From the IMG/VR virus record IMGVR_UViG_3300044634_001060, positions 1 through 50,730 of that record: a DNA stretch of 50,730 bases; one strand, 5' to 3'. Of the stretch, positions 3,215 through 50,730 are shown piece by piece; position 1 is the first letter of the stretch; each line of letters begins with the position of its first letter. The stretch is from a virus. The position numbers and the translations under genes are program-made. The notes below the pieces were generated by a model. It saw only the letters and a list, made by a program, of their open reading frames with translations. It was not told where the DNA came from and ran no database searches.

Positions 3215-4230
3215 TAGACCTCAAGTTTATTATAGATGTCAATAAGAACTTGTTTGTCAACTGTGTTAGATTCAATAGTATCCAGCTGACTGAGAACAAT
3301 TTGATCAACGCTTTCAAAACTAATTTCGCCGCCCTCAAAGTTTTCTTCCTCGTCCTTAACAGGCATCAATTGTAGTTCTCTAACTTTGTAAAGTTCAGAA
3401 AACTTTTCTCGAATAAAATTAGCTTCTTCGTAGCTAATATTAATGTTTAATTTTACACGAGCATAGGTGTATTCGTCAAGTAAATTCTGATGGTTATCAA
3501 TTAATTCACTTAGTGAAAATACTTTAAACTTTGGACAAGCATCCCAATTCACGTATACAGGTTCTTCGCCCCACGTAAGGAACATAGCACCACGTTCATT
3601 GTCATCAACGTCTGCATAGTTGTGCGGGAAAGCATTACCAATATAGTGAATGTTGTTTTTGTATTGACGCTTGTGGAAGTGTCCGCTAAACACGTACTCT
3701 GGTCCACTTAGGTGTTCTGCTTTGAGTCCACCATGATCAGGCATTTCTACCATTGCGTTCATTTTGAAGTACGGTAGTTCTAAGTGACCAAACAAATACT
3801 TGACCTTTAGCTTTTGTACTTGCTTCCACTCATCTGCCACTAGCCACGGTAAAATAGCAACGTCGCCTTGCATGAACTTTTCATCTACCATTACAAAATT
3901 AGGTAGATCTCTAGCATACTCTACGCTGTTAAGTTCACGCTTGTCCTTGTAGTACAAGTCGTGGTTACCAGTGATAAAGTAGACCTTTTCAAAGTTGTCA
4001 TTTAGCTTCTTGAGGTCTTTGATACTAGCGTTCATTGTAGCAACGTTAACGCTGGCACGATGGTGACTCCAGTCACCTAAGAAGATACATGTCTCGGCAC
4101 CGCGAGCTTTTGCTTCCGCAATAAACCAATCAACAAATCGATGACAATCGTCTAAGTGAATGCGGCTGTTTTGCTTTAATCCGTAATGAATGTCTGTGAA
4201 GCAAGCCGCTGTTTTAAACAGTTGGCTCAT
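3214..4230 (-). CDS. 47: gp47-like recombination endonuclease subunit (Mre11/SbcD-type nuclease)
   Basis: A 338-residue metallophosphoesterase, the nuclease partner of gp46; T4 gp47 is 339 residues. The metal-binding motifs are all visible in order: FTDIHYG with Asp13 and His15, FLGDWSHHR with Asp53, TGNHD with Asn89, His90 and Asp91, then FGHLE and SGHFHKR for the later histidines. These coordinate two Mn/Mg ions for DNA cleavage. The gene overlaps gp55 upstream by ATGA and touches gp46 downstream by one base. This gives fixed stoichiometry and expression from the sigma-70-type promoter at 5134-5162, the time at which T4 also makes its recombination proteins. No key residue is missing. Confidence 0.95.
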   Translation of the reverse strand: MSQLFKTAACFTDIHYGLKQNSRIHLDDCHRFVDWFIAEAKARGAETCIFLGDWSHHRASVNVATMNASIKDLKKLNDNFEKVYFITGNHDLYYKDKRELNSVEYARDLPNFVMVDEKFMQGDVAILPWLVADEWKQVQKLKVKYLFGHLELPYFKMNAMVEMPDHGGLKAEHLSGPEYVFSGHFHKRQYKNNIHYIGNAFPHNYADVDDNERGAMFLTWGEEPVYVNWDACPKFKVFSLSELIDNHQNLLDEYTYARVKLNINISYEEANFIREKFSELYKVRELQLMPVKDEEENFEGGEISFESVDQIVLSQLDTIESNTVDKQVLIDIYNKLEV

Positions 4231-5108
4231 AGATCGTCATATTCCTCATGTGAAGGCTTGTCAGCTTCTGCACTTTCTCTGAGTTGGCGGATTTCTGCTT
4301 CGTGCGCCAACTGTCTGCTGTAGCTGGGCATATGACCCTGCTCAATCAAAATGTCGTCACGAATAGTTTGATTGCGTTTTTCTAAGTTTAGCACTCGAGT
4401 AAAACTGTTGTTTACTGCGGCAGTGTAATAAGCAAACGGATTATCAGATTTTGCTTCATTGAACTGTAGTCCAACTTGACTTAGCTGTACCAGTGCTTGC
4501 CCACGCATTTCATCAATGTATGTGTATCCGCGCCAGTTAGCACGATGGCTGTAACGCTCAACTAGCTTTAAGAACATTGTACCTAATGTATTTGTAATGC
4601 GTCCGTGGTCAACACAGAAGTCGCCGTTGCTAATACTGCCACGCCAGTGACTGCGCACAACTTCTTTTAGCTCATTGTTTTGATAAGCATAGTGCTTGAA
4701 TGGTGGGAAGTTTACACGGCTCTTTTCTTCGGCTTCGTTTTTTGGATTCTTTTTACGACCTTCTTCTTCCGGGATATGCTCGTATGTCATTACTCGAAAT
4801 ACAACTTCGTCGTCGCCAATTGAATCAGGGTCAACAGCAAAGTCTTTTTGCTTGGGCTTGTTACGATAATCTTTTGAATCGTGCCCTAGCATAGCTTCTG
4901 CGTAACCCTCACTTTGGATACGTGCAGCCTTATTTTCTTTTGCTTGTTTTAAGGCTTTTTTATCGATGTTCTTGATGTTATCTACAATAATATCGTACAT
5001 GTCGTAACGGTCGTCTTCAACATAACAAAAGGTAATTTTGCTTTTATGAATCTCCTTTAGAATGTCTTTGTTATTGAGATAGTTTTGCTTTTTGGCTGTT
5101 ATTGTCAT
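4227..5108 (-). CDS. 55: gp55-like late-transcription sigma factor
   Basis: A 293-residue protein of the gp55 family, small sigma factors that bind host core RNA polymerase and recognise the late promoter (TATAAATA in T4). The conserved core lies in the second half: RANWRGYTYIDEMRGQAL (about 189-206), then NPFAYYTAAVNNSFTRVLN, then KRNQTIRDDILIEQGHMPSYSRQL, which correspond to sigma region 2-like helices. T4 gp55 is only 185 residues. The extra N-terminal 130 residues are charged, contain VVFRVMTYEHIP and VNFPPFKHYAYQ, and appear to be a feature of marine gp55 forms. The ATG has a good ribosome binding site (CAGGAGT, spaced about 7). The gene faces away from a late promoter 115 bases upstream, so the switch gene lies beside one of its own targets. 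Confidence 0.9.
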   Translation of the reverse strand: MTITAKKQNYLNNKDILKEIHKSKITFCYVEDDRYDMYDIIVDNIKNIDKKALKQAKENKAARIQSEGYAEAMLGHDSKDYRNKPKQKDFAVDPDSIGDDEVVFRVMTYEHIPEEEGRKKNPKNEAEEKSRVNFPPFKHYAYQNNELKEVVRSHWRGSISNGDFCVDHGRITNTLGTMFLKLVERYSHRANWRGYTYIDEMRGQALVQLSQVGLQFNEAKSDNPFAYYTAAVNNSFTRVLNLEKRNQTIRDDILIEQGHMPSYSRQLAHEAEIRQLRESAEADKPSHEEYDDL

Positions 5109-5222: not shown

Positions 5223-5230
5223 GATAAATA
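5223..5230 (+). promoter_or_regulatory. Late promoter GATAAATA
   Basis: GATAAATA matches the T4-type late motif with the degenerate first base seen in marine T4-like phages. With T4 spacing (motif at -13 to -6) transcription starts at A5236. That leaves a 13-base leader containing AGGAGA ahead of the ATG at 5249. It would drive the baseplate block to the terminator at 12094. Confidence 0.8.
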
Positions 5231-5248
5231 CTACAATAGGAGAACGCT

Positions 5249-13060: not shown

Positions 13061-13104
13061 CCGGCGCATTTTAGGGCGTCATTAAAACGAGTTTTAACTT
13101 TTAA

Positions 13105-13112
13105 GATAAATA
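13105..13112 (+). promoter_or_regulatory. Late promoter GATAAATA before gp25
   Basis: The same GATAAATA motif as at 5223. It ends five bases before the gp25 ATG, so with T4 spacing the first transcribed base is the A of the start codon (13118). Confidence 0.75.
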
Positions 13113-13117
13113 ATGTT

Positions 13118-13501
13118 ATGGTAACATTTAAAGGTTTCAGCACAGTTGACAGGGTTCGAGCTCCATATACATTGGATGACATGGACCTAGTCAAGCGCAA
13201 TTTGCTTAATACTTTTTATACACGTAAAGGTGAAAGAGTAATGAGACCTGCGTATGGCAGTGACATTTGGGATTTGTTAATGAACCCCGAAGATACATTG
13301 ACCAGAGCTGAAATTGAAGAAGATGTAAAAAGAATTATAGATGCTGAGCCTAGAGTTAGACATATTGAAACAGTTATGTTTTATTCAGATCAAGCATTAC
13401 GAATTGAAGTAACTATTCAATATGTGCAGACAGGAGATCAAGACTCGCTGTACCTAGAATATGTTAGACAGGCAACCTCTGCCAGCGATGATATGGGATA
13501 A
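13118..13501 (+). CDS. 25: gp25-like baseplate wedge protein
   Basis: A 127-residue protein of the gp25 family (T4 gp25 is 132 residues). gp25 has a lysozyme-like fold and forms part of the inner baseplate where sheath assembly begins. Diagnostic sequence is LLNTFYTRKGERVMRPAYGS (about 29-48), then DIWDLLMNPEDTLT, then the helix and strand IEEDVKRIIDAEPRVRHIE. The reading frame extends upstream to 12914, but that part overlaps the divergent promoter and the opposing gene. The ATG at 13118 directly after the late motif gives the correct family length. No ribosome binding site is visible, consistent with a leaderless message. gp6 follows after 6 bases. Confidence 0.85.
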   Translation: MVTFKGFSTVDRVRAPYTLDDMDLVKRNLLNTFYTRKGERVMRPAYGSDIWDLLMNPEDTLTRAEIEEDVKRIIDAEPRVRHIETVMFYSDQALRIEVTIQYVQTGDQDSLYLEYVRQATSASDDMG

Positions 13502-37959: not shown

Positions 37960-37985
37960 TAATTAAAATGAGTTTTAAAAAAAGT

Positions 37986-37993
37986 GATAAATA
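37986..37993 (+). promoter_or_regulatory. Late promoter GATAAATA after the giant gene
   Basis: GATAAATA lies in the 42-base AT-rich gap between the giant gene and the next start. T4 spacing puts transcription start at 37999, only three bases before the ATG at 38002. Confidence 0.7.
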
Positions 37994-38001
37994 AACGTAT
38001 T

Positions 38002-38655
38002 ATGTCAACAGAAGAACAAACAAGTGAGAATAGTATGGATTCTAGACGCGAGTTAGAAGAGCAGCCCAACGATTATGCTGGACTAAGCATGAGCGGGCAT
38101 ATTCTTATCCGCGACAAGGAAACCGGCGAAGAGCTTATTAATAAGCGCAACGCTATACACTACGGCAACATGGCTAACATGGTTGCCAATGCATTAAACA
38201 ATGCATCAGGTTCCTATATTCACTACATGGCTTTTGGTAACGGTGCTACTAGTGTTGATACAAGTGGTCGTGTAGTATACAAGACTCCGCGAGTAAGTGA
38301 AGCATACGAAAGCGGTGCAAACTTATACAGCAGAACTTATTATAAAATCATTTCAGCAAATACATTAACTGATAAGATTGAAATCATTCCAGGTCCGAGC
38401 TATACTGATATTAAAGTTACTTGCACACTAGGGTATGATGAACCAGGCGATCAAGACTTGTTTGATAGTAGTACTACCAACGAAGGCGACTATATTTTTG
38501 ATGAACTAGCATTGTTTAGTTATCCTAGAGATACAGCCGCAACTGAGCCAATTAATACAAGCACAATGTTGACGCACGTGATTTTCCACCCTGTTCAAAA
38601 ATCACAAAACAGAATAATTGAAATAATTTATACTGTTAGGGTACAGTTAAGTTAA
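38002..38655 (+). CDS. Virion structural protein (baseplate/tail-fibre connecting type)
   Basis: A 217-residue protein of a kind seen in marine T4-like phages at the end of the baseplate block. The characteristic opening is GHILIRDKETGEELINKRN (about 29-47), then AIHYGNMANMVANALNN and YIHYMAFGNGATSVDTSGRV, a pattern also found in tail proteins of other phages. The C-terminal half is beta-rich with no enzyme motif. Its place after the gp7-position gene would fit T4 gp8, but similarity to gp8 (334 residues) is not evident. A frame-extending GTG at 37984 is rejected because it lies upstream of the predicted transcription start. No ribosome binding site precedes the ATG. Confidence 0.6.
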   Translation: MSTEEQTSENSMDSRRELEEQPNDYAGLSMSGHILIRDKETGEELINKRNAIHYGNMANMVANALNNASGSYIHYMAFGNGATSVDTSGRVVYKTPRVSEAYESGANLYSRTYYKIISANTLTDKIEIIPGPSYTDIKVTCTLGYDEPGDQDLFDSSTTNEGDYIFDELALFSYPRDTAATEPINTSTMLTHVIFHPVQKSQNRIIEIIYTVRVQLS

Positions 38656-38671: not shown

Positions 38672-40507
38672 ATGCCATATACAGTTACAAATTCCGATGG
38701 TAGTTTAACAGTATCCGTAGCAGACGGTACCGTTGATCAAACCACATATGCACTGGCGCTGGTCGGCCGCAACGTTTCAAACTATGGTGAATACTTTATT
38801 CGTAACAGTATTCGTCATTTGGAAAACTTTGCTAGCGCCGCGGCACCATCAACAAGCACAGTACTAGAGGGTCAACTCTGGTACGACAAAAGCGAAAGTC
38901 TTTTAAAAGTCTGGGACGGCAGTCGTTGGAAACGAGCTACAAATATTGTAGTTGATTCAACTGCACCTAGCACAAGTTTAACAGATGGTACATCATTCTT
39001 TGATACAACCAATGACAAGTTATATGTACACGACGGTGTTAGTTTTAAAGTCGCAGGCTATGCCGGCGAAGTAACAAACTCATATAGCAGTACTACCAAT
39101 ATTGGTTCCCCAAACAATTATGGTACAAAAATTCGTAACATCTTCCTCAAAGATAGCAGTGGTGTTGACCGCGCTGTACTTGCTCTAACATATGTAAACG
39201 ATTCTGCTAACGGTTCAATCAACCAAGGTACTACAACAACAGCCGGTGGTAAAGAAACTATCATGGCAGTGTTTAGTGACCACGCTACATTTAGTGTTCA
39301 AAACACATCAAGTGCAACAGAAGGCGAAAGCATTAACTTCTATGCAGAATTAGTAGCATCAGGTGGTATTGGTACAACTATTAATCCAGGTCTAAACTTA
39401 CGCTCAGAATATGATACAACAGCACTTGCACTCACAGATAGAGCCTATCGTGCAGACGCTGCTTATATTATCAACACTGGTAGCGTAGGCAGTGATGGTT
39501 CAAACGTTTCAGCTAACAACGTTATCCATACAGGCCGCGGCTATGTGCCAGCTACTAATAACAGTTTTAGTTTAGGTAGCGCATCATTTAGATTTGCAGA
39601 TTTACATACTGGTACAGTGTATGTAGGTAACGGTACATCTGGTAGCATATTGCCCGCTGGTACAGTAACCTTGGGTAACAGTTCTTCATATGTAGATCAC
39701 GTATATGCAAATAATATCACTGTTGCAGATATTATCAATTTCAGTACTGCAAACTTAGGTAACACCAGTAGCCCAATTTTAAATGGCTTCTTTGCTAATG
39801 CTACTGTAACAACAAGCATGACACTCGGCAGTGGCGGCACATCGTTTACACTACCAACTGCTAGAGGTACCAACGGACAAGCACTTGTTACTGATGGTTC
39901 CGGTGTTGTATCTTGGCAAACACTAGCTGGCGACATTGAAAGTGTTGCAGCAGGCGCAGGTCTAACAGGTGGCGGTACAAGCGGCGCAGTTACACTAGCA
40001 GTTGGCGCAGGTAGTTATATTATTGCTAACGCAGATGATATTGCAGTTGACGCAACACCAAATAACACAGCAAGTAAAGTTGTAGCAAGAGACGCTAGTG
40101 GTAACTTTGCAGCTGGCGTTATTACAGCCACAGCAACCAGCGCACGATATGCTGACTTGGCAGAAAAATATCTAGCAGATGCAGACTACGAAGTTGGCAC
40201 CGTTATGGTAGTAGGCGGAGAGAAAGAAGTTACAGCTTCTTCGGGATTTGGACAACGTGCAATTGGTGTAGTATCAGCTAACCCAGCTTACATGATGAAC
40301 AGTGAGCTCGAAGGCGGAACCTACGTAGCACTTAAAGGTCGTGTGCCAGTTAAAGTTACTGGCGTCATCCATAAAGGCGACAGACTCATAGCTTCAACGA
40401 ATGGCTGTGCCACTGCTGGCGTTATGCATGCAAATGATGTATTTGCTATTGCACTAGAGTCAAAAGCAGATGCAGGCGCCGGTGTAGTTGAAGCAGTGAT
40501 TCTGTAA
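38672..40507 (+). CDS. Tail-fibre-like structural protein
   Basis: A 611-residue fibre-like protein. The N-terminus (MPYTVTNSDGSLTVSVADG) and the module EGQLWYDKSESLLKVWDG (about 67-84) occur in fibre or baseplate-attached proteins of marine T4-like phages. The middle is Ser/Thr/Asn/Gly-rich, with the repeated element LGSASFRFADLHTG and LGNSSSYVDHVYANN (about 305-355), typical of trimeric fibre shafts. The C-terminus has YADLAEKYLADADYEVGTV (about 490-508), VIGVVSANPAYMMN-like sequence and GRVPVKVTG, a terminal domain common on cyanophage fibres that may be an assembly domain. It probably contacts the host surface or forms an adapter for it. A weak GGGGA lies upstream of the ATG. The stop codon overlaps the next late promoter. 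Confidence 0.7.
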   Translation: MPYTVTNSDGSLTVSVADGTVDQTTYALALVGRNVSNYGEYFIRNSIRHLENFASAAAPSTSTVLEGQLWYDKSESLLKVWDGSRWKRATNIVVDSTAPSTSLTDGTSFFDTTNDKLYVHDGVSFKVAGYAGEVTNSYSSTTNIGSPNNYGTKIRNIFLKDSSGVDRAVLALTYVNDSANGSINQGTTTTAGGKETIMAVFSDHATFSVQNTSSATEGESINFYAELVASGGIGTTINPGLNLRSEYDTTALALTDRAYRADAAYIINTGSVGSDGSNVSANNVIHTGRGYVPATNNSFSLGSASFRFADLHTGTVYVGNGTSGSILPAGTVTLGNSSSYVDHVYANNITVADIINFSTANLGNTSSPILNGFFANATVTTSMTLGSGGTSFTLPTARGTNGQALVTDGSGVVSWQTLAGDIESVAAGAGLTGGGTSGAVTLAVGAGSYIIANADDIAVDATPNNTASKVVARDASGNFAAGVITATATSARYADLAEKYLADADYEVGTVMVVGGEKEVTASSGFGQRAIGVVSANPAYMMNSELEGGTYVALKGRVPVKVTGVIHKGDRLIASTNGCATAGVMHANDVFAIALESKADAGAGVVEAVIL

Positions 40508-40513
40508 TAAATA
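40506..40513 (+). promoter_or_regulatory. Late promoter AATAAATA
   Basis: AATAAATA overlaps the stop codon of the fibre gene. T4 spacing gives a start at 40519 and a 19-base leader with TAGGAGA ahead of the ATG at 40538. Confidence 0.7.
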
Positions 40514-40537
40514 TAGTAAGGAATTTAGGAGAAAACT

Positions 40538-41871: not shown

Positions 41872-41918
41872 TTAATTACGCGGGCTGAGCCCAAGTAATA
41901 TTGAAAAGTGTCGAACAA

Positions 41919-41949
41919 AAGCCAGTTACTTCGGTAGCTGGCTTTTTTT
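41919..41949 (+). terminator. Intrinsic terminator, copy 2
   Basis: The hairpin is identical to the one at 41591 (11-bp stem, UUCG loop) followed by seven T residues. A smaller interrupted hairpin (GGGC-TGA-GCCC flanked by TTAC/GTAA, 41876-41898) lies between the lipoprotein stop and this terminator. Confidence 0.95.
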
Positions 41950-41952
41950 ATG

Positions 41953-41960
41953 TGTAAATA
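41953..41960 (+). promoter_or_regulatory. Variant late promoter TGTAAATA
   Basis: TGTAAATA lies three bases after the T run of the second terminator and five bases before the ATG at 41966. T4 spacing puts transcription start on the A of that ATG. It would drive the accessory operon to the right edge of the window. Confidence 0.5.
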
Positions 41961-41965
41961 TTGGC

Positions 41966-42325
41966 ATGAGCACACGTTTGACCCAAGCACTAGAGTTTGC
42001 AAACTATAGAGTTACACTGAACAATCAGCAAGCCGCACTTAGAGCAAAAACTCAAAGTTTATTGAGCTACAGTATCAATGGCGGTACATTTACCATTGAT
42101 ATGGATTTAATTAACTTTTGCAAACTGTTACTTGATGAAAAGCAGTCAGAAGCAGTACTGCTAGACATATATAAGAATCCTATTAAGGTCGTTCTAGCAG
42201 ATTTTTACAGCGAAATACTAAGTCGTTATTTTGAAGTCACCAACGACTATTATGCTGAATACGAAAAACTTCGCAAGTCTAGAAAAGTACATAAGGTATT
42301 AGATCTCAATGAAGAAGGCAAATAA
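41966..42325 (+). CDS. Conserved phage protein of unknown function
   Basis: A 119-residue protein of a family I associate with marine T4-like phages, with an opening of the type LTQALEFANYRVTLNNQQ (about 5-22). Further conserved-looking parts are SLLSYSINGGTFTIDMDLIN (31-50) and FYSEILSRYFEVTNDYYAEY (80-99). It is helical with no enzyme motif, membrane segment or signal. It is the first gene of the accessory operon and directly follows a late-type motif without a ribosome binding site, so it may be translated from a leaderless message. Its end overlaps the start of the glycosyltransferase by 17 bases. The function is not known. Confidence 0.65.
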   Translation: MSTRLTQALEFANYRVTLNNQQAALRAKTQSLLSYSINGGTFTIDMDLINFCKLLLDEKQSEAVLLDIYKNPIKVVLADFYSEILSRYFEVTNDYYAEYEKLRKSRKVHKVLDLNEEGK

Positions 42326-45485: not shown

Positions 45486-46131
45486 AGCCGAACTAAGACG
45501 TCAGCGTTTTCTAGCCGCTAAAGAAGAAGCTGGAGGAACAGCAGGTGCATTGATTAGATCAAATGCTAAAAAGCCTGCATATGTTTACTTTGATATCACA
45601 GGTACTATTTTATGTGTCACCACAGACTCAGACATTGAACCACTACCACACTGGACACACAAGCACGAGTTTACACAGGAACAAGTAGAAATCCTTAAGG
45701 GTAAGAATCATAACCTATTCTATGTAAAGCAGGATCCGTTAGTTGAAAACTTATTCAGTATTGAAAACAGGTCTGTGGAAAGTCAATACGTAACAGTCGA
45801 AGAAGAATTCCTATCTTTGATACCAAAAGAAAAAACAGCCAGCTACGATATCAAATGTAAACTAAGCTCAACAGAATTTACAGTTACAGCCCACAAGAAT
45901 TTGATAAAACGATACGATGACATTGAGCCCAGCAACATGGTTGCTAAAGGTAAAAAGATTTTAAAGTTTTATATTACTGCTGAAAATGATCCACACTTTA
46001 TGTTTTCGGCTATTAATGTAAGTTTGGCTAACCTAGTAACAACAGGTGAAGTAACTATTAAAACCTCCGAAGACTTTAGCCAATGTAGCATTTATACTCC
46101 AAAAGCGTTTGATAAATATGTGCGTACTTAA
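45475..46131 (+). CDS. Hypothetical phage protein
   Basis: A 218-residue protein I cannot assign. The first 30 residues are helical and charged (MESEAELRRQRFLAAKEEAG). The rest alternates short strands, for example KPAYVYFDITGTILCVTTDS and FYITAENDPHFMFSAINVSL, suggesting one or two beta-sandwich domains. No catalytic pattern, signal or membrane segment is seen. Two Met codons compete. The second (45475) is chosen because GGAG lies 7 bases upstream, whereas it is only about 1 base from the first (45469). It overlaps glycosyltransferase copy 2 by 11 bases. The beta-rich make-up would suit a structural or sugar-binding protein, but this is a guess. Confidence 0.55.
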   Translation: MESEAELRRQRFLAAKEEAGGTAGALIRSNAKKPAYVYFDITGTILCVTTDSDIEPLPHWTHKHEFTQEQVEILKGKNHNLFYVKQDPLVENLFSIENRSVESQYVTVEEEFLSLIPKEKTASYDIKCKLSSTEFTVTAHKNLIKRYDDIEPSNMVAKGKKILKFYITAENDPHFMFSAINVSLANLVTTGEVTIKTSEDFSQCSIYTPKAFDKYVRT

Positions 46132-47145: not shown

Positions 47146-47717
47146 TAGTATGGCTCTTTGGTTCAACTAGTCCGTTTGCGCAAGCACTTAAGGCTGCACT
47201 GGAATCTGCCGGCCATAGTGTAGTTGCATATGGACGCGACACAGTTGACTACAATGAGCCCAAAGAATTTGTAGAAGGTCTACTAGGGCCAGACATGGTT
47301 ATATTTAATCAGCATGTAGGCGGAGGCTTTATGGAACCATTCCTAGATTACCACCCTGCATTTCATCGTGATTATACTATGAAACCGGTATACGAACATC
47401 TAGATTCTGTGTTACTGTTTAAACTTTATCTTATTCATTATTATTCCAGGGCAAAGTTTGTATTTGTTACCAGCAGTATTGCAGTATTAAAAGAACACGG
47501 ATTAGACTTAGTTATGTATAGAATGTTGCGATCATTGGAGCATCAAATAATCTATGCCGCCGCGGCAGATGGTATCAATGCTATTGGTATTTGTCCTGGT
47601 GGGCTCAACAGTGATAATACGCCCGAGTATGCAGGCAAAACTATAGAACTAGCGTTATCTAATGCAGTACCTGGTAAAATTTATTTTGCCAATACCGGCG
47701 ATGAGGTACCAGCATGA
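47142..47717 (+). CDS. SDR-like Rossmann-fold protein
   Basis: A 191-residue short protein resembling short-chain dehydrogenases/reductases, which oxidise or reduce sugars and other substrates with NAD(P). The N-terminus VWLFGSTSPFAQALKAALES (3-22) is a glycine-rich nucleotide loop of atypical form. FVFVTSSIAVL (106-116) supplies the catalytic-type Ser. The usual YxxxK appears as YRMLR (126-130), with Arg for Lys. AIGICPGGLNSD (147-158) matches the PG motif. It is about 50 residues shorter than most SDRs. The Lys-to-Arg change could mean weak or non-enzymatic function. The start is taken as GTG at 47142, overlapping the previous stop (GTGA) with AAAGG upstream. The longer frame from 47082 lies inside the previous gene. 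Confidence 0.6.
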   Translation: MIVWLFGSTSPFAQALKAALESAGHSVVAYGRDTVDYNEPKEFVEGLLGPDMVIFNQHVGGGFMEPFLDYHPAFHRDYTMKPVYEHLDSVLLFKLYLIHYYSRAKFVFVTSSIAVLKEHGLDLVMYRMLRSLEHQIIYAAAADGINAIGICPGGLNSDNTPEYAGKTIELALSNAVPGKIYFANTGDEVPA

Positions 47718-49249
47718 GCAGCCATTACGAAGCCGCAGCCGACACAGCCGAACAACAATTAAATGCAATTAGTCCCAGCATGTGTTATGCAAAGTGGGCG
47801 CAGGTAAGTATGCATCTTACCAATGGTATGACACACAGTTGTTACCATCCGCCTACGCATCAAATTCCTCTCGCTGAACTCGCAGTAAATCCCAGCGCAC
47901 TTCATAACACCGAAGAAAAGAAGCAACAGCGTAAAGCAATGCTAGAAGGTGAAAGACCTGCTGGGTGTAGCTATTGCTGGCGCATCGAAGATGTGGGCGG
48001 CCGCAGTGATCGTATCTATCGCAGTGGCGAGTACTGGGCGCAAAACGCCCGCGAAGATATCAAGGCAGCTGGGTGGGAAGGCAACATTAATCCACGTTAT
48101 GTGGAAGTAAACTTTAACCAAGCCTGCAACTTCAAGTGTAGCTATTGCAGTCCGCATCTAAGCACCAGCTGGCATCAAGAAGTCAAAGACCATGGGCCGT
48201 ATCAAATCGTAGGTGGCGAGCATAACAACACAGAAAGTTTAGCTCGTGCTGGCCTAATGCCTTTACGTGTAGCACAGGATGAGAATCCATATGTAGAAGC
48301 GTTCTGGAAGTGGTGGCCCGAACTGTATAAAAGTCTAGAAGTGTTTCGTATGACAGGTGGTGAACCACTAATGGATGTAAACACTTTTAAGGTGTTGGAC
48401 TATGTACACAAGAATCCCAACGCATGGTTAGAGATGAGTGTAACATCAAACATGTGTCCGCCAAAGCCACAGCTAATGGACAAGTTTATTGAATCGCTAC
48501 AGAGACTAGAACAGATTCAAATTTGGGAAGATCCACAGAAGTTTAATCCAAACAGTGGAAACAACTGGTATGTAGCACCGGCTTGTAAGAACTTTGCTGT
48601 GTTTGTTAGCTGTGACGGTTTTGGTAAGCAAGCAGAGTATATGCGTAACGGCATGGACTTTGAAGTGCTAAAGAAGAATGTGTTGCGTGTATTACGTGAA
48701 ACAGACAACACTACTATCACATTTATTAATACATTTAATGCACTTAGCCTAACCAGCTTCCGTGAATGGTTGCAGTTTATCCTAGAACTCCGCGAAGAGT
48801 TTGCCAAGGATCGACAGGGCGTTAAATACATACCAATACCGGACAATGGTGATCATAAGCACCCGGATTATGAAATTAAGCCAAAGCAACGTATTTGGTT
48901 TGACATTCCGCTACTAAGAGCACCACACTGGCAATGCATACAAGTAATGCCAGAATGGTATCAAGACTACTTAGAAGAAGCTATTGCTTTTATGGAACTT
49001 AATGCTGCCAACGAGCAGTATATAGACTATAGAGGCTTTAAGGACTTTGAAATAGATAAAGCACGTCGTAACCTAGAATGGATGAAAGCGGGCAGTAAGT
49101 TAAGTGAAGAAGAAGTACTAAAAGCGAGAGCTAATTTTTACAAGTTCTTTACGCAACATGATCAGCGTAGAGACACAGACTTTTTATCAGTGTTCCCGGA
49201 AATGGAAGACTGGTGGCAAATTTGCCAAGAAGCAAATGCAATGATTTAG
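47714..49249 (+). CDS. Radical SAM protein with N-terminal twitch-type cysteines, copy 1
   Basis: A 511-residue radical SAM enzyme. The SAM-binding 4Fe-4S motif is CNFKCSYC (Cys138, Cys142, Cys145). FRMTGGEPLMD (about 213-223) is the GGEP motif that contacts the SAM amino group. Upstream, CYHPPTHQIP (43-52) and CSYCWRIED (85-93) supply additional Cys/His that could hold a second cluster, as in twitch/SPASM proteins but placed N-terminally. Such enzymes generate a 5'-deoxyadenosyl radical to modify sugars, peptides or nucleotides; the substrate is not known here. The gene overlaps the SDR-like gene by ATGA. A close paralogue follows 10 bases downstream, so the two may work together or on related substrates. 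Confidence 0.85.
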   Translation: MSSHYEAAADTAEQQLNAISPSMCYAKWAQVSMHLTNGMTHSCYHPPTHQIPLAELAVNPSALHNTEEKKQQRKAMLEGERPAGCSYCWRIEDVGGRSDRIYRSGEYWAQNAREDIKAAGWEGNINPRYVEVNFNQACNFKCSYCSPHLSTSWHQEVKDHGPYQIVGGEHNNTESLARAGLMPLRVAQDENPYVEAFWKWWPELYKSLEVFRMTGGEPLMDVNTFKVLDYVHKNPNAWLEMSVTSNMCPPKPQLMDKFIESLQRLEQIQIWEDPQKFNPNSGNNWYVAPACKNFAVFVSCDGFGKQAEYMRNGMDFEVLKKNVLRVLRETDNTTITFINTFNALSLTSFREWLQFILELREEFAKDRQGVKYIPIPDNGDHKHPDYEIKPKQRIWFDIPLLRAPHWQCIQVMPEWYQDYLEEAIAFMELNAANEQYIDYRGFKDFEIDKARRNLEWMKAGSKLSEEEVLKARANFYKFFTQHDQRRDTDFLSVFPEMEDWWQICQEANAMI

Positions 49250-49259
49250 AGGACACACA

Positions 49260-50730
49260 ATGGGACGTAAGCAGGGCGAAAGCCACAGAGAGTTTAAGAA
49301 GAGAATGATTGATCCGGTTTCGGAATCATTCTGTGCGGCCAAGTGGCTTAACGCTACTATTTGGCTAGGTCACGGCGGCACTACTAGTTGCCATCACCCT
49401 CCCGCACACCAAATTGATTTAGAAGAAATCAAAGAAAATCCCAGTGCTATTCACAACACCAAGCACAAAAAGAAAATGCGTCAAATGATGCAGGAAGGCA
49501 AGCGTCCCAAAGAATGTGAATACTGCTGGAAGATTGAGGACATGGGCAAGGATGCTGACGGCAACGAGCCTGTAAGTGATCGCACATACAAGACTGTTAT
49601 CTACGAAGATGAAGACTTGATGAAGATTGCTAAACTAAATCCTGATGCAGACGTTGGTCTTAAGACGCTGGAAATTTCCTTTAATAGAACCTGTCAGTTT
49701 GCGTGTAGCTATTGTAATCCTGCTTTCAGTACTACATGGGTAAAGGACATTCGAAACAACGGTGGATATCACAATATCCGTAGCGATGCACGTGGTCACT
49801 TCATTGACGACGCACCCTATGCTGAACCATTTGACAGAGATGACTTTAATCCATATGTAGATGCTTTCTGGCGTTGGTGGCCAGAGCTTAGTCAAGAGCT
49901 AGAAGAAATTCGTGTTACTGGCGGCGAACCCACAATGACTCCGGACATCTATAAACTGTTTGATTGGTTTAAGGAAAATGCTGATACACCGCAAGCACAG
50001 AAAATGCGACTGGCTATTAACAGTAACTTGGGTTCTAAGAAAGACCTCATTGACAAGTTGATTGCAGGCACACAGTATATTAATCGTTTCCACTTGTATA
50101 CCAGTTGCGAAGCATACGGTCCACAAGCTGAATATATTCGCGATGGACTAAATTGGACCGAGTGGACACATAACTTTGAACGTATGTGCAGTGAAGCACG
50201 TATCGAAGGCCTGCACATGATGATGACCATTAATGCGCTGTGCTTGGATAGTATTGTAGACTTCCTAGATTGGATGCTGTCAATGAAGCGCAAGTACGGA
50301 CATAATCGTCCTGGCTTTACTTGCAATATCTTACGCTTCCCCAGCTTCCAAAGTCCACTTACATTACCAGATGAGTTGCGTAAAAAGTATCACGACCAAA
50401 TCTTTAACTGGCTCAAAGAAGTACGTGAACGCGACGAGCGTGATGCAAATGGACTACAGTTAGTACAACCTTGGGAACAGGATCAGCTAAGTCGACTTAT
50501 TGAATATTTGGACGTTGTTAAAACACCACACCGTAATACTGCTGATCGCGAACTACTAGAGCATGACTTTAAAGTATTCCATGAGCAGTATGATGCACGT
50601 CGAGGCAAAGACTTCCGCAAAACATTTCCTAACCTAGTAGAGTTCTACGATAGCATCAAAGTTCTACCCTTGGATAAAAAGGAAATGGATATTCAACAGC
50701 CCAAAACACTGGCCAAGGACGGTGCTGTAT
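49260..50730 (+). CDS. Radical SAM protein with N-terminal twitch-type cysteines, copy 2 (partial)
   Basis: A paralogue of the preceding gene, open at the window end with 490 residues visible. The SAM motif is CQFACSYC (Cys145, Cys149, Cys152) and RVTGGEPTMTPD carries GGEP (about 220-231). The N-terminal metal-site segment repeats: CHHPPAHQID (44-53) and CEYCWKIED (86-94), with the shared NPSAIHNT (60-67). The N-terminal 160 residues align with copy 1 almost without gaps, apart from an insert DADGNEP (98-104) and a variable stretch around 112-135. The ATG has GAGGACACACA before it. The stop codon is beyond the window, so full length and any following genes are not known. The reaction is unknown; two diverged copies in tandem suggest distinct substrates or successive steps. 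Confidence 0.85.
   Translation, partial: MGRKQGESHREFKKRMIDPVSESFCAAKWLNATIWLGHGGTTSCHHPPAHQIDLEEIKENPSAIHNTKHKKKMRQMMQEGKRPKECEYCWKIEDMGKDADGNEPVSDRTYKTVIYEDEDLMKIAKLNPDADVGLKTLEISFNRTCQFACSYCNPAFSTTWVKDIRNNGGYHNIRSDARGHFIDDAPYAEPFDRDDFNPYVDAFWRWWPELSQELEEIRVTGGEPTMTPDIYKLFDWFKENADTPQAQKMRLAINSNLGSKKDLIDKLIAGTQYINRFHLYTSCEAYGPQAEYIRDGLNWTEWTHNFERMCSEARIEGLHMMMTINALCLDSIVDFLDWMLSMKRKYGHNRPGFTCNILRFPSFQSPLTLPDELRKKYHDQIFNWLKEVRERDERDANGLQLVQPWEQDQLSRLIEYLDVVKTPHRNTADRELLEHDFKVFHEQYDARRGKDFRKTFPNLVEFYDSIKVLPLDKKEMDIQQPKTLAKDGAV

Follow-up and report, generated by a model that had tools for sequence, protein, structure and literature searches.

Late genes of T4-like phages appear to yield leaderless as well as Shine-Dalgarno-led messages from one gp55-type promoter

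Whether a phage late promoter can place the start of its RNA directly on a start codon is the question raised by the gp25 locus of a T4-like phage. The window analyzed here, an IMG/VR record taken over its whole stretch of 50,730 bases, has jumbo T4-like phages such as SCTP-2 and PA5oct relatives as its nearest named phages by gp6 (~43% identity), and a megablast of the window against named phages returned nothing, leaving no close named phage at the DNA level. The baseplate wedge gene gp25 (13118-13501, plus strand; PF04965, phrog_43) is preceded by the late promoter box GATAAATA (13105-13112, plus strand), and the five bases ATGTT separate this box from the ATG at 13118-13120. Both the coordinates and the gene identity given in the earlier note are thus correct. 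In T4, late promoters precede the RNA start by about one helical turn (PMC2988020), and, with the five-base offset from box to +1 taken over from T4 by analogy, the ATG at 13118 becomes the predicted RNA start. Because the ORFs 5' of gp25 lie on the minus strand, its run of genes opens with gp25, and gp6 (13508) comes next. The box occupies positions -13 to -6 of the ATG such that a Shine-Dalgarno (SD) sequence cannot fit, which accounts for the SD sequence noted earlier as missing. Also encoded in the window is a gp55-type late sigma factor of 293 aa (4227-5108, minus strand; phrog_12791, E 3.6e-98; phrog_234, E 3.3e-25). Directly 3' of the gp25 box, and upstream of the predicted +1, an out-of-frame ATG (13113-13115; ATG TTA TGG TAA) would, on any message that began further upstream, open a minicistron that overlaps the start of gp25.

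The spacing was compared across 81 loci, comprising the window and 80 relatives fetched by gp6. Inspection of these loci reveals a late promoter box with a box-to-ATG distance of exactly five at gp25 in 81/81, counts across relatives not being independent of one another, at pairwise gp25 identities down to 36% and with 21 different five-base spacer sequences. Two loci scored at 14 carry a tandem box, the second copy of which lies at five. The box itself is GATAAATA, one base from the consensus TATAAATA-type box, in 78/81 loci. Gene 5249, which has the same box together with an SD sequence, provides an internal control. Its box in the window (5223-5230, plus strand) lies 18 bases from the ATG with AGGAG at 5238-5242, and the distance for its homologue is 16-24 in 38/39 of these loci. 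In the 39th (L057, position 2034), the homologue has its box five bases from the ATG, a possible natural switch from the leadered to the leaderless state. A wrong start call for gp25 was ruled out, as SD-led homologues of gp25 use this same start codon, and the starts further downstream in homologues that the earlier note had envisaged as a refutation were not what these homologues displayed.

Additional sites in the window extend the comparison. The box TGTAAATA (41953-41960, plus strand) stands five bases before the ATG of a 119 aa gene (41966-42325, plus strand), as described in the earlier note, and the gene is predicted from this spacing to be leaderless. The distance is five in 19/47 unique homologous contexts and in 19/20 unique contexts among the closer homologues L317-L340, and the first two bases of the box differ among relatives (CT, GG, TG, AA and others). 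At gene 38002 (38002-38655, plus strand; phrog_11259), eight bases separate GATAAATA (37986-37993, plus strand) from the ATG, in line with the three-base leader already proposed for this site; the leader is predicted to be AUU and the message near-leaderless. The 37986 site is a predicted 3-nt-leader variant of a mostly five-base family, in which 51 unique contexts include 24 at distance 5, five at 6 and four at 8. A minus-strand site at 848-834, earlier offered with a "perhaps", does carry AGTAAATA four bases before an ATG, but in the nearest relative six bases separate TAAATA from the ATG; with spacing not conserved (4 versus 6), the site was dropped as a further example. Normal leaders with AGGAG were confirmed for genes 5249, 40538 and 41665, the second having the box AATAAATA at 40506-40513 (plus strand) and AGGAG at 40527-40531. 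Gene 46147 is likewise leadered, with GATAAATA at 46111-46118 (plus strand), 28 bases to the ATG and AGGA.

Matches to TATAAATA with at most one mismatch number 74 in the window versus 95 expected. That is to say, the box alone is not enriched, and its placement is therefore the test. Whole-record searches of 13 relatives provided 181 unique GATAAATA sites for the clade to which the window belongs. Of these, 67 have a distance of five and 75 a distance of at least 16; five fall at 6-8, and the range 9-15 is empty. Box-to-ATG distances are bimodal, with a peak at five, the value for which the earlier note had suggested looking, and a broad class at 16 or more. For a 250-kb relative (G001), 11 different genes stand at distance five among 31 sites examined, with products that include a PAAR protein, a head-tail adaptor and a virion structural protein as well as gp25. 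Relaxing the box to TAAATA in this genome gives 9, 5, 36, 9 and 8 sites at distances 3, 4, 5, 6 and 7, respectively (P ~1e-9). Larger relatives with ATAAATA at distances 3-7 have it at five in 19/32 (G014), 14/20 (G015) and 7/12 (G019) cases. The start codon at five-base sites is ATG in 88 and GTG or TTG in none, which fits the expectation for leaderless starts. An SD sequence is present at 1/67 five-base genes versus 66/75 leadered genes; these counts receive little weight because the box itself excludes an SD sequence at five-base sites, and the absence of SD was dropped as an independent argument for being largely geometric.

To place the predicted +1, base preferences were read relative to the box. 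At leadered promoters of the clade, +5 is a pyrimidine in 59/75 cases and +6 is a purine in 67/75, with A in 58, and T4 leadered late promoters have a purine at +6 in 24/31. At five-base sites, the base preceding the ATG is a pyrimidine in 67/67. The RNA probably begins at the sixth base after the box, which in the five-base class is the A of the ATG. An alternative is that the promoter is real and the true start lies a few bases upstream or downstream, leading to leaders of 1-4 nt or to a lost ATG in place of strictly leaderless messages. Some families do have the ATG at 6-9, and T4-type starts can be imprecise. Against this, the distance of five is invariant at gp25, and in the 38002 family position 6 is still A in 9/9 contexts with the ATG at 6 or 8, such that the RNA start seems to stay put when the ATG moves. 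We regard a shifted start as unlikely. It would be functionally close to a leaderless message, as no SD sequence fits either way, and our interpretation allows the predicted leaderless class to include such short leaders.

A different explanation would have the A+T-rich box at -13 to -6 only resemble a promoter and act as a translational signal (an unstructured ribosome site of the S1 type) within a longer mRNA transcribed from an upstream promoter. A+T-rich sequence before SD-less starts can help initiation, and the position of the box is fixed relative to the ATG. However, the same box precedes SD-led genes at varied distances, and the pyrimidine-A offset is tied to the box and not to the ATG. 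The genes upstream of gp25 run the other way, and the 41953 box adjoins an intrinsic terminator (41917-41952, plus strand; hairpin 41917-41946 plus U-tract; -18.7 kcal/mol, z -6.4) that is present again in relatives with altered sequence. This terminator ends just before the box, making read-through from upstream unlikely. The box is, moreover, that of a T4 late promoter, and gp55 is encoded. A purely translational role is improbable.

The arrangement is not confined to the window's clade. For the cultured Pelagibacter phage HTVC008M, 9/18 late-box genes lie at five, gp25 included, and annotated starts agree for gp25 (31132), the baseplate tail tube cap (19456), the baseplate wedge initiator (49760), the putative tail tape measure (16007, minus strand) and the DNA end protector (18916, minus strand). 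In an unbiased count of 6-mers by position, the top rank goes to TAAATA with its end five bases before the ATG in HTVC008M and to AGGAGA in T4. HTVC008M differs in its smaller genome, in its TATAAATA box at gp25 and in the distances among its gp25 relatives, which run from 5 to 9 only across 40 unique contexts. Stenotrophomonas phage RAS14 has 7/42 at five, and its gp25 has CTAAATA at that distance. No five-base peak is found among the late-box genes of T4 (0/31), Syn9 (0/20) or S-PM2 (1/28). One gp25 lineage switches state, with HTVC008M at five bases (predicted leaderless), Mosig at eight and Melnitz SD-led. Leaderless gp25 as a general T4-like trait was rejected, being absent in SCTP-2, Deifobo, Phosso, Atu_ph07, 121Q, GAP32 and RaK2 as well as in T4, Syn9, S-PM2 and S-SSM5. 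A chance juxtaposition kept by descent, for which one could cite only the lack of box enrichment across the window, can be set aside given a spacer that varies in sequence and not in length, 11 unlinked genes at five in G001, the probability given above for TAAATA in that genome, and recurrence in HTVC008M and RAS14.

We therefore return to leaderless initiation and hold with considerable confidence that the late regime is mixed, with one gp55-type promoter predicted to yield both leaderless and SD-led mRNAs. The gp55-type late RNA polymerase would recognize NNTAAATA (mostly GATAAATA) and start transcription on an A located six bases beyond the box. In a subset of the late genes, of which gp25 is the clearest, this A would be the first base of the start codon, and the resulting leaderless mRNA would have to use an SD-independent route in which the 5'-terminal AUG is recognized by the ribosome with initiator tRNA. 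Other late genes would obtain an SD-led leader of roughly 11-26 nt from this promoter. The box, invariant spacing, bimodal distances, ATG-only starts and the pyrimidine-A preference at the predicted +1 are features of the sequence; we infer from these that the box is what gp55 recognizes, that transcription begins at this +1 in vivo and that ribosomes translate the message in its leaderless form. Both the leaderless reading of gp25 in the earlier note and its suggestion of two initiation classes among late genes gain support at the sequence level from the spacing, the bimodal distances, the pyrimidine-A, start-codon and homologue-start comparisons and the recurrence in HTVC008M.

Weighing against this reading, the host may initiate without SD sequences in other ways. 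Phages themselves can carry a ribosomal protein of interest here, bS21, which contacts the anti-SD region. It is encoded by HTVC008M, Mosig, Melnitz, SCTP-2, Atu_ph07, G014, G015 and G016, and was not found in G001, which is a fragment. As a cause of the leaderless class, bS21 was rejected because it does not discriminate: SCTP-2 and Atu_ph07 have it with gp25 not at five, and G001 appears to lack it. In other phages, bS21 has been linked to late-stage replication (PMC9723584). Phage bS21 is a candidate for late control of initiation that is not limited to phages with leaderless gp25. A regulated late translation program, where the phage alters initiation late in infection (for example through its own bS21) and leaderless structural mRNAs are favored over SD-led ones, is a doubtful though conceivable extension.

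T4-type late gene expression is a textbook system with SD-led messages, and lambda cI is a leaderless phage mRNA beginning with AUG. The latter is a single regulatory gene with a host-type promoter, whereas the genes considered here are late structural genes under a predicted phage sigma factor. Likeness to T4 late promoters (gp55/gp33/gp45; PMC2988020) lies in a TATA-type box of 8 bp, located roughly one turn upstream of the predicted +1, a gp55 homologue and late structural genes; the difference is that T4 messages are leadered and SD-led, while many genes here stand at five. For T4 gene 25 itself, a split ribosome-binding site is known in which a distant SD sequence is brought near by a hairpin (PMC3014915), so that the same gene shows non-canonical initiation in both, the difference being that here no leader at all is predicted. 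Thermus phage phi-YS40, for which leaderless middle and late mRNAs are established (PMC3594737), resembles the present case in being lytic and in having some of its later genes form a leaderless class. It differs in its Thermus host, in that most of its middle and late transcripts are leaderless and in accompanying IF2/IF3 changes (PMC3594737), and in that leaderless and SD-led late genes are here predicted to share one gp55-type promoter. Neither mapped RNA starts for HTVC008M or such phages nor a report of leaderless late genes in T4-like phages was found in the literature searched, largely without subscription papers. Leaderless phage mRNAs are already known from phi-YS40; what appears to be new is their predicted occurrence beside SD-led late genes in T4-like phages. 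Many aquatic T4-like phages, cultured SAR11 phages included, appear to use the same promoter for both kinds of message, a natural pairing of leaderless and leadered genes that bears on how marine phage starts and 5' UTRs are annotated and makes late-infection ribosome steering by phages directly testable. Possible benefits to the phage are compactness, fixed stoichiometry or preferential late translation.

A dyad also lies upstream of several of these promoters. At gp25, TTAAAACGAGTTTTAA (13082-13097, plus strand; approximately -36 to -21) is 7 bp upstream of the box and is kept before gp25 in relatives, and TTAAAATGAGTTTTAA (37963-37978, plus strand) was identified from sequence upstream of the 37986 box. 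The dyad, TTAAAACNNGTTTTAA, stands 7-8 bp before the box at the gp25, 5249 and 37986 promoters and is seen upstream of several baseplate and tail promoters, both leadered and leaderless. With at most 4/14 mismatches, it occurs at 66/88 unique five-base sites and 46/84 leadered sites versus 119/4000 random positions, and in G001 at only a few of the 31 promoters. Its role could be that of an activator site or of a second element of the promoter. T4 late promoters show no -35 conservation (PMC2988020), so we describe the promoter as working like a T4 late promoter and do not call the two identical. Six loci (L125, L134, L146, L151, L160 and L164) have two GATAAATA boxes facing each other at a separation of ~35-45 bp. 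A dyad-like element lies upstream in most, and no start codon occurs within 40 nt of either box; transcripts from these convergent starts would overlap. Elsewhere in the window, 17689-37959 forms one ORF of 6756 aa, the start of which matches the virion structural protein family phrog_10938, and two neighboring genes at 47714-50727 have weak matches to radical SAM families.
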